Assembly (NCBI GenBank): GCA_902554885.1
Contig: CACDPV010000002.1
Span: 1-64,000 of the forward strand
Length of the DNA stretch: 64,000 bases
Direction: 5' to 3'
Origin: Paracoccaceae bacterium
Lineage (GTDB): Bacteria; Pseudomonadota; Alphaproteobacteria; Rhodobacterales; Rhodobacteraceae
Both the position numbers and the translations under genes were made by a program. Each line of letters opens with the position of its first letter. Position 1 is the stretch's first letter. The notes under the pieces are model-generated. The model saw only the letters and a list, made by a program, of their open reading frames with translations, searched no databases and was not told the DNA's origin. This document shows positions 1,351 through 22,955 of the stretch, piece by piece.

Positions 1351-2211
1351 ATGAGATTTGACATCGACTTGTTAAAAACGTTCATTGCCGTTGCCGACAC
1401 GGGTTCAGTGAAATTAGCATCAGAGCGTGTTGCTCGGTCATCTGCGGCAGTATCAATGCAGATGAAGAAACTAGAACAGCTTGTCGGCGCACCTATTTTT
1501 CAAAGGGCAGCTGGTACGATGCGTATGTCCGATGTGGGAGAGCGTTTGATGCCTCACGCACATCGTATAGTCCAAGCCCATGATACCGCCGTTGCCGAAC
1601 TGCAAAGCCCAAATATTGAAGGTCTGGTACGGGTAGGTCTATGTCTCGAAAATTCAGAGACACGTATGCCAGAGATATTATCCGGATTTTCTCAAGCGCA
1701 CGCACGTGTGACCGTTGAGATAGTGTCTGGCGATGCTCAGGATCTGGCTCTGATGCTCGCGAACGGTGAATTAGACATTGCGATTCTAACCACTGGCGGC
1801 GGCGCGCCTCTTGAAGAAAGAGATAGGCTGCTCTTCGAGCAACCATTAGCATGGGCAGTTCATAAAAACGGACAATGCCTCAAGGAGCGCCCATTGCGCT
1901 TGGCTGTGGCGCCTGTTGGATGCCCCTGGCGAATAGCAGCACTTGATGCATTGAAATACGCTGGAATTCCATATCAAATTGCTTATCTCTCGAATGTTTC
2001 AGAATCACAGCTTGCAGCCGTTCGCGCAGATTTGGCGGTAGCAGCTTTACCATTCAGCCGCATTCGAAATGCAAACCAACCAATTTGTATAAATGATGAG
2101 CTACCCAAGCTTCCTTATACACAAATAGTGCTTCGCACTGCAGTTAATCCAAGCGAAAATACGAAGGCGCTTGCTGCACAGGTCTTATCTGCTTTCAATC
2201 GACCTGCATAA
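1351..2211 (+). CDS. LysR-family transcriptional regulator
   Basis: DNA-binding transcription factor with an N-terminal winged helix-turn-helix and a periplasmic-binding-protein-like effector domain. The first 60 residues have the LysR pattern (DIDLLKTFIAVADTGSV, then SSAAVSMQMKKLEQ). The remainder is the effector domain, beginning near IEGLVRVGL. An upstream in-frame ATG at 1324 would add nine residues. I prefer 1351 because LysR proteins usually begin a few residues before the DLLKTF helix and because the candidate promoter ends at about 1317. It is divergent from selA and convergent with the sugar ABC ATPase gene, so its target cannot be named from context alone. The effector is unknown. 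Confidence 0.85.
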   Translation: MRFDIDLLKTFIAVADTGSVKLASERVARSSAAVSMQMKKLEQLVGAPIFQRAAGTMRMSDVGERLMPHAHRIVQAHDTAVAELQSPNIEGLVRVGLCLENSETRMPEILSGFSQAHARVTVEIVSGDAQDLALMLANGELDIAILTTGGGAPLEERDRLLFEQPLAWAVHKNGQCLKERPLRLAVAPVGCPWRIAALDALKYAGIPYQIAYLSNVSESQLAAVRADLAVAALPFSRIRNANQPICINDELPKLPYTQIVLRTAVNPSENTKALAAQVLSAFNRPA

Positions 2212-22050: not shown

Positions 22051-22497
22051 TTAGTGGCACGCCTTACCTAACACCTTTAATCTCCAATAATTATATGGAA
22101 GAGGCGTTAAAAATCCTGCTGCAAGCATAAAGGGTATCACCCACCAAGTAAGAGTAGCACCACCGGTTAAAATAACGTCTGTTATATTCATGGCAGCTTC
22201 CATCGCTATCATTGAAATTAGTGACATACCAATTGCAGTTTTGAAGGCATTACTTAGTTCCATTTGCCTCCATAAAATGACCGTCTCTAATATTATTGAG
22301 GTAATCAAGCCATTTAGTATCGCGAGGGTCATAATCGCCATCACTGGCCATTCAATTCCCGAAAATTGAAAAAATGCAATTGTCCCAAAATCACCTATGG
22401 AGCAACCAATCAAGCACCACATCGTATTATAGGATGATCGTCGCCATGTATGCTTACAACGCCAATTTATTCCAGTTATATTGCTGATTTCAACCAA
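22051..22497 (-). CDS. DUF4396-type membrane protein, predicted CueR target
   Basis: A 148-residue membrane protein with four or so hydrophobic segments. The N-terminal SSYNTMWCLIGCSIGDF matches the pattern I know for DUF4396 proteins, including its cysteine pair. The start is TTG, supported by AAGGAG six bases upstream. Its promoter, overlapping the divergent cueR-like gene's control region, has the unusual 19-base spacer of MerR-activated promoters. That makes it a likely copper-induced gene. The biochemical role is unknown; copper handling at the inner membrane is an inference from regulation. Confidence 0.72.
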   Translation of the reverse strand: MVEISNITGINWRCKHTWRRSSYNTMWCLIGCSIGDFGTIAFFQFSGIEWPVMAIMTLAILNGLITSIILETVILWRQMELSNAFKTAIGMSLISMIAMEAAMNITDVILTGGATLTWWVIPFMLAAGFLTPLPYNYWRLKVLGKACH

Positions 22498-22511
22498 TTT
22501 ACGCTCCTTGA

Positions 22512-22544
22512 ATTATGTGATAAACCTTCCAGTAAGGGTAAAGT
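22512..22544 (-). promoter_or_regulatory. CueR-type promoter/operator
   Basis: On the minus strand: -35 TTTACC (22537-22542), a 19-base spacer containing ACTGGAAGGTT, and -10 CATAAT (22512-22517). The imperfect dyad ACCTTCC...GGTAAAGT covers 22524-22544. A 19-base spacer is diagnostic of MerR-family activation, and the spacer closely resembles the CueR site I recall before E. coli copA. It directs transcription of the DUF4396 gene, and the site also lies directly upstream of the regulator gene. Confidence 0.75.
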
Positions 22545-22556
22545 AAAGGACAAAAT

Positions 22557-22955
22557 ATGAATATTGGAGAGGCTGCTAAAAAATCTGGGCTCACCGTAAA
22601 AACAGTTAGATATTACGATGAAATAAATTTAATTAAGCCTGTGAAAAATAAAGCTACTAATTACCGCCAATACACTGACGCTGAATTGGCTAAATTACAA
22701 TTCATCGGAAAAGCGCGACGTTTTAATTTTAGCATCAAAGAGTGCAAAGAACTTCTCTCATTATACGAAAATCAAAATCGTAGTAGCAAAGAAGTGCGAA
22801 ATCTTACTCTTACTAAAATTTCAGAAATCGATGTTAAATTAAATGAACTAGAAAACTTACGCACACAACTTTCACACCTGGTTAATTGCTGCAAAGGGAA
22901 CGAACGACCCGAGTGTCCGATAATTGACGAACTATCTAATAGCGATTTGAACTAA
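22557..22955 (+). CDS. cueR: MerR-family copper-responsive regulator
   Basis: Metal-sensing activator of 132 residues that twists 19-base-spacer promoters. The N-terminal winged helix is MNIGEAAKKSGLTVKTVRYYDE. A coiled-coil dimerisation helix follows, then a metal-binding loop with Cys112 and Cys120 (CKGNERPEC), the same spacing and numbering as E. coli CueR. Cys111 is extra. Loop chemistry points to Cu(I) rather than Zn or Hg. It is divergent from the DUF4396 gene, which carries the matching promoter. No copper ATPase lies next to it. Confidence 0.85.
   Translation: MNIGEAAKKSGLTVKTVRYYDEINLIKPVKNKATNYRQYTDAELAKLQFIGKARRFNFSIKECKELLSLYENQNRSSKEVRNLTLTKISEIDVKLNELENLRTQLSHLVNCCKGNERPECPIIDELSNSDLN

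Follow-up and report, generated by a model that had tools for sequence, protein, structure and literature searches.

We identified, in the window (the whole 64-kb stretch of DNA that was analysed), a gene for a small membrane protein of the uncharacterised DUF4396 family that lies divergent from cueR and is preceded by a CueR operator. The linkage recurs in related genomes, and so does a pattern in which DUF4396 replaces copA beside cueR. CueR is commonly described as controlling CopA, the Cu(I) ATPase. We propose that DUF4396 and cueR form a copper-tolerance switch, in which DUF4396 would be a CueR-driven Cu(I) exporter standing in for CopA, and we hold this explanation as a whole with moderate confidence.

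The divergent gene pair and its promoter

The DUF4396 gene (positions 22051-22497, minus strand) starts with TTG and encodes a membrane protein of 148 amino acids. The family assignment made in the first-pass annotation was confirmed by a match to PF14342 (E 1.2e-35, 123.4 bits for a cut-off of 27) that spans profile positions 1-141 of 141. The divergent gene, cueR (22557-22955, plus strand), is separated from it by a gap of 59 bp and encodes a Cu(I)-type MerR-family regulator of 132 amino acids. The CueR equivalog TIGR02044 scored 148.9 bits with this protein (148.1 in the genome search), narrowly over the cut-off of 147.4, and residues 1-128 of 132 align with the solved CueR 1q05_A (E 3.8e-27). 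Its cysteines are at positions 63, 111, 112 and 120, and Ser77 is also present. Cys112 and Cys120, to which the first-pass annotation had drawn attention as CueR-like, are thus both there; in CueR these two bind Cu(I), with Ser77 accompanying them. A ribosome-binding site AAGGAG, also noted before, is found at 22504-22509 on the minus strand, 6 nt before the TTG start of DUF4396, and is kept in the relatives L002 and L133.

According to published work, the CueR signal is a ACCTTCCC-(5)-TGGAAGGT dyad within a 19-base spacer (PMC1526738). The window contains the dyad ACTTTACCCTTACTGGAAGGT at 22524-22544 on the minus strand, centred in a 19-base spacer and conserved upstream of DUF4396 in relatives. 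It agrees with the published signal at 14 of 16 positions (2 mismatches), and nowhere else in the 64-kb window is there a match with 3 mismatches or fewer. Shuffling the window produced at least one such match in 32 of 100 shuffles, and the significance of this single site is weak; what raises the operator above chance is the comparative evidence and not the match itself.

Promoter type and spacer length were as first annotated, and the hexamers had to be corrected by 5 bases. The -35 hexamer is TTTACT (22542-22547), the spacer covers 22523-22541 and the -10 hexamer is TATCAC (22517-22522), all on the minus strand. This register rests on an alignment of 57 promoter sites, including the window's own (L001), and on the genus sites. 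The first two bases of TATCAC carry 1.70 and 1.87 bits in the alignment, against 0.03-0.29 bits for the six positions of the CATAAT first annotated. Likewise, TTTACC is lost in L002, L124, L127 and L129-L131, and TTTAC[TA] is retained in all ten genus sites listed. The register TTTACC-N19-CATAAT was therefore rejected as not conserved in relatives, the corrected one lying 5 bases upstream. Judging from the spacing, transcription from the rejected register would start inside AAGGAG; the start inferred from the corrected register falls just ahead of it.

Recurrence of the pair in close relatives and in the genus

Close relatives were surveyed using the best 80 of 585 DUF4396 relatives in genome contigs, the window's own copy being excluded from the counts. 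Since only these 80 were kept, the counts lean towards close relatives, and since near-identical loci (L005-L011 and others) were counted separately, they do not represent independent events. A CueR-like open reading frame is present in 45 of these best 80 loci and adjoins DUF4396 in 44, in divergent orientation in 43 and in tandem in one (L046). All 46 CueR-like frames, the window's included, carry C-x7-C. A CueR box agreeing at 12 or more of 20 positions precedes DUF4396 in 56 of the best 80 loci, 16 of which have no adjacent cueR; L050, whose reading frame lacks a start region, was left out of the operator scans. When the published signal was scanned over the other 79, the site upstream of DUF4396 outscored every other site of its locus in 42, for about one locus expected from a random position by our estimate. 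This concerned 31 of the 44 loci with an adjacent cueR and 11 of the 35 without. Neither an adjacent cueR, nor a box, nor a multicopper oxidase, CopC or CopD gene was found in 18 of the best 80 loci. The first-pass suggestion that CueR ties DUF4396 to the copper response is supported by this neighbourhood survey, with no copper-induction data at hand. Control of DUF4396 by CueR at the window locus, for which expression data are lacking, appears very likely to us.

Relatives of DUF4396 are also encoded at 12 loci (L082-L093) on contigs from viral collections, and whether these are viral or misbinned host contigs is unresolved. A search of plasmids at E 1e-5 found no DUF4396 relatives.

Sixteen genomes of the window's genus were analysed, 14 of which carry DUF4396 (own genome included). 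A strong CueR gene adjoins it in 13 of these 14. The remaining one, G003 (L133, G003:C8:72900-74600), has an intact box and an intact DUF4396, but of its cueR only some 40 bases, recognised by eye, are left, which reflects either a recent loss or an assembly fault. DUF4396 is not essential, since two genomes, G006 and G010, have neither DUF4396 nor that cueR nor CopA. A 27-base operator pattern composed from the window and L002 sites recovered the site upstream of DUF4396 in all 14 genomes, with at most 2 mismatches in 13 and with 3 in G008. Elsewhere in the 16 genus genomes, no site came within 2 mismatches of the pattern, and sites with 3 mismatches were no commoner than for a reversed control pattern. 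One of the 3-mismatch sites is a second CueR-like box in G014 (L134, C18, about 1360-1386, minus strand), located before what we read from the sequence as a cytochrome c / c' pair. The regulon may therefore include more than one target in that genome, and a single-target regulon is not claimed as certain for the genus. Apparent cytochrome c / c' genes such as those behind the L134 box are of the kinds that follow DUF4396 in other lineages.

Other copper systems were searched for in the same genomes. The Cu-ATPase family TIGR01511 exceeded the cut-off in none of the 16 genus genomes (five contain only fragments, E 3e-4 to 8e-4) and in 16 of 25 other genomes. The CusA family (TIGR00914, 1e-60) was found in 0 of 16 genus genomes versus 24 of 25 others. 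A copper-resistance multicopper oxidase over the cut-off was likewise found in none of the 16, yet in only 1 of 14 controls, and G006 and G011 gave weaker partial matches. The window's own genome is 53% complete, and incompleteness inflates absences such as a missing CopA.

Class-wide distribution and the absence of CopA

The wider class was sampled evenly with 241 Alphaproteobacteria genomes, all at least 90% complete except the window's own, which was included. In this sample (n=241), PF14342 was detected in 33 genomes, the Cu-ATPase (1e-100) in 159 and CueR (1e-36) in 100. CueR was present at this threshold in 13 of the 33 DUF4396 genomes and absent from 20, and cueR adjoins DUF4396 in seven (G000, G136, G169, G230, G291, G294 and G310). 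Loci were fetched for 29, with the gene start located in 21 and not in the other 8; a box of at least 12 was present in 7 of those 21. The recurrence expected from the first-pass annotation is thus found among close relatives (44 of the best 80 of 585) but is looser across the class (7 of 33), which indicates that the CueR link belongs to part of the DUF4396 family. Four loci in genomes of 1.2-1.4 Mb (L099, L101, L103 and L104) encode a window-like DUF4396, with no CueR at 1e-36 and no recognisable box.

The Cu-ATPase is absent from 21 of the 33 DUF4396 genomes versus 61 of the 208 others (n=241), and these 61 class genomes carry neither. Among genomes with CueR, DUF4396 is present in 6 of 9 without CopA versus 7 of 91 with CopA (Fisher p 1e-4, rising to 5e-4 when the own genome is left out, uncorrected for phylogeny). 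The six genomes with CueR and DUF4396 and without CopA (G000, G136, G169, G230, G291 and G294) belong to six families, and cueR adjoins DUF4396 in every one; G294, an assembly of two contigs, has a listed completeness of 100%. Three class genomes are counter-examples, with CueR and neither CopA nor DUF4396. G295 has next to cueR, at a contig end, what is presumably a CopA fragment, and in G236 (L138, G236:C4:30500-36500) the CueR-like gene lies next to genes that we take to be MerP/MerT-like, both readings being made from the sequence without a family scan. No explanation was found for G038.

A further test covered 50 genomes, which we chose from the 80 loci and whose completeness is not given. 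TIGR01511 at 1e-90 was missing from 40 of the 50, and was present in 13 of 14 control genomes. Since the ATPase is present in 10 of these 50 genomes and in 12 of the 33 class DUF4396 genomes, G310 among them, DUF4396 is not a strict replacement of CopA. In the named isolate Amylibacter marinus NBRC 110140 (L031), where DUF4396 adjoins cueR, one TIGR01511 ATPase (3.8e-139) is encoded too. Both arrangements occur within the genus g68: the neighbour of cueR is copA in G130, and DUF4396 in G230 and G310. A TIGR01511 ATPase (9.0e-156) is encoded in G310 as well, elsewhere in the genome or at a place not listed.

PF14342 also comprises a second subtype, with HCLSGC..GE and a His-rich tail. At L144 (G293:C1:2482000-2495500), such a His-tailed DUF4396 has a Cu-ATPase gene, a cueR and a box no more than 10 kb away, and a gene between them presumably encodes a multicopper oxidase, again named without a family scan. 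The copper link may thus extend past the window's subtype.

The DUF4396 protein, its proposed role and alternatives

At E 0.001, Pfam gave only DUF4396 for the window protein and NCBIfam gave nothing, and no P-type ATPase domains were found. An AlphaFold2 model built with 50 sequences (mean pLDDT 85.7) has helices at residues 2-8, 15-46, 52-76, 81-89, 91-111, 120-130 and 133-142. By our reading, 15-46, 52-76, 91-111 and 120-130 with 133-142 are the four predicted transmembrane helices. The N-terminus has 4 Lys/Arg, the middle loop 2 and the C-terminus 3, with none in either of the remaining loops, which predicts a cytoplasmic location for both termini. Foldseek found no match of the model among solved folds at E 0.001 or better, and sequence searches of solved structures found no DUF4396 relative at E 1. 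The best VIA-align Z was 7.3 (8q3v_C), in a range that the tool calls common, with Rnf and Nqr subunits at Z of about 5-6; these weak resemblances were set aside as unconvincing.

Conservation was evaluated on 75 aligned sequences, 18 of which had been picked by a motif containing CxxGC and the next G and are invariant there by construction. In the 57 relatives not picked in this way, C28, G31, C32 and G35 are invariant, C28-x3-C32 being the CxxGC. C14 is less conserved (49 of 50 close and 8 of 10 farther relatives). M96, M99, E100, M103 and N104 are invariant in all 67 window-like sequences; among the 8 distant ones, M103 is retained in 6, and M99, E100 and N104 in 5 each. P134 and N136 are kept in all 75. 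C147-H148 forms the C-terminal end of nearly all window-like sequences, with H148 gapped in 3 of 50. In the model, the Met/Glu/Asn stripe sits in helix 91-111 and C28/C32 in helix 1. We infer that the stripe and the paired cysteines may resemble soft-metal coordination.

The proposed switch would work as follows. CueR would sense excess cytoplasmic Cu(I), probably Ag and Au as well, and activate the divergent promoter with its 19-base spacer, leading to expression of DUF4396. DUF4396, predicted to cross the inner membrane with four helices and to have its N- and C-terminus on the cytoplasmic side, would take up cytoplasmic Cu(I) through Cys28-x3-Cys32, the Met/Glu/Asn stripe and the terminal Cys-His and pass it to the periplasm, where, in many relatives, neighbouring genes may supply a multicopper oxidase, CopC/CopD, a cupredoxin or cytochrome c. 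In the window's genus, where CopA and CusA were not found, DUF4396 has the position next to cueR that copA has in related bacteria. The genes, the operator, the recurring linkage and the replacement pattern are observed; that copper regulates the gene, that the protein binds Cu(I), and which way and how it would transport the metal are inferred. Even without copper data, we consider a role of DUF4396 in copper detoxification probable. Its being a Cu(I) exporter in place of CopA, with transport inferred only from CxxGC, the stripe and the terminal Cys-His, we rate slightly above even. The protein has 148 residues and no ATPase domain, and the driving force of any transport is thus unknown.

The pair resembles CueR-copA and HmrR-actP in having a CueR-type regulator, a dyad in a 19-base spacer and an adjacent membrane-protein target, but this target is a 148-residue DUF4396 protein and not a Cu(I) P-type ATPase. 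MerT offers another parallel: it too is a small membrane protein that has several helices and a cysteine pair and is controlled by an activator of the MerR family. MerT brings Hg(II) into the cell, whereas we propose export for DUF4396, and the window DUF4396 has no Pfam match to a mercury transport family at E 0.001.

Neighbouring genes bear on what else DUF4396 could do. Neighbour families were built as single-linkage BLAST clusters, and one representative of each was identified, by TIGR01480 for the multicopper oxidase, PF04234 for CopC and PF05425 for CopD. Within 4 kb of DUF4396, a multicopper oxidase is encoded in 20, CopC in 20, CopD in 21 and at least one of these in 36 of the best 80 of 585 loci. 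Cupredoxins, class I cytochrome c and cytochrome c' likewise occur nearby in relatives, and at L025 CusB and CusA are encoded downstream. Such loci are reminiscent of copABCD and pco, which share the oxidase, CopC and CopD; they differ in that many of them have DUF4396 directly behind the CueR box, ahead of any other gene, and these partners are absent beside the window and L002 genes. The recurrence of periplasmic and membrane copper proteins and of c-type cytochromes would suit a chaperone for Cu(I), or a maturation factor, that is bound to the membrane, serves periplasmic partners and does not clear the cytoplasm, and so would the persistence of Cu-ATPases in 10 of the 50 DUF4396 genomes. 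This chaperone role is possible, and we find it rather unlikely: the window and L002 keep CueR control with no partner nearby (the gene downstream is epimerase-like), and the search of the genus for the copper-resistance oxidase points the same way, with the reservations on controls and partial matches given above.

In 23 of the best 80 of 585 loci, the strand of DUF4396 also encodes a small protein with CxxCH that begins no more than 0.7 kb downstream; the motif occurs in 30 of 380 small open reading frames near DUF4396, those of the 23 loci included. DUF4396 could accordingly be a Cu(I) sink, a sensor partner or a redox protein tied to cytochrome c genes and shielding respiration, as could also be read from the second box in G014 and from the CueR sites predicted ahead of cytochrome genes in Vibrio (PMC1526738). 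We regard such a function as improbable, and less plausible than a chaperone: the stripe and paired cysteines suggest soft-metal coordination by inference, DUF4396 has no haem motif, and no cytochrome adjoins it in the window or L002. A copper importer for cuproprotein supply would be consistent with the CopD neighbours, CopD often being described as a copper-uptake protein. Activation by excess Cu(I) through CueR would be an odd control for uptake, and CueR stands in related genomes beside copA, which removes Cu(I) (PMC10141476); import is thus very unlikely. A coincidence of divergent neighbours and a promoter match, which the 32 positive shuffles might suggest, is already refuted by the comparative data, namely the recurrence of cueR and of the box in 44 and 56 of the best 80 of 585 loci and in 13 of 14 genus genomes, including loci without an adjacent cueR, and its chance of being correct is negligible.

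In the literature searched, a DUF4396 protein of Acidihalobacter is placed at the margin of a cluster of heavy-metal genes, in a passage that names neither a function nor a CueR link (PMC7760498). No further mention of DUF4396 and none of PF14342 was found in this literature, and no title or abstract opening listed in searches on the CueR regulon, on CueR in marine bacteria/SAR116 and on SAR11 copper concerned a CueR-DUF4396 link.

With CueR wired to DUF4396 and no CopA found, a small membrane protein may serve as a stand-in for the pump in marine bacteria. We suggest tentatively, at somewhat less than even confidence, that DUF4396 is an unrecognised family of Cu(I) exporters, about 150 residues long and without an ATPase, which on repeated occasions has replaced copA beside cueR in marine Alphaproteobacteria and some Gammaproteobacteria. 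If the export reading is true, bacteria without an apparent CopA would still have a CueR-controlled exit for cytoplasmic copper, which could account for copper handling in streamlined ocean bacteria that have no P-type pump. For the uncharacterised DUF4396 family, the CueR link points to a metal, to a switch and to particular residues on which tests can focus.
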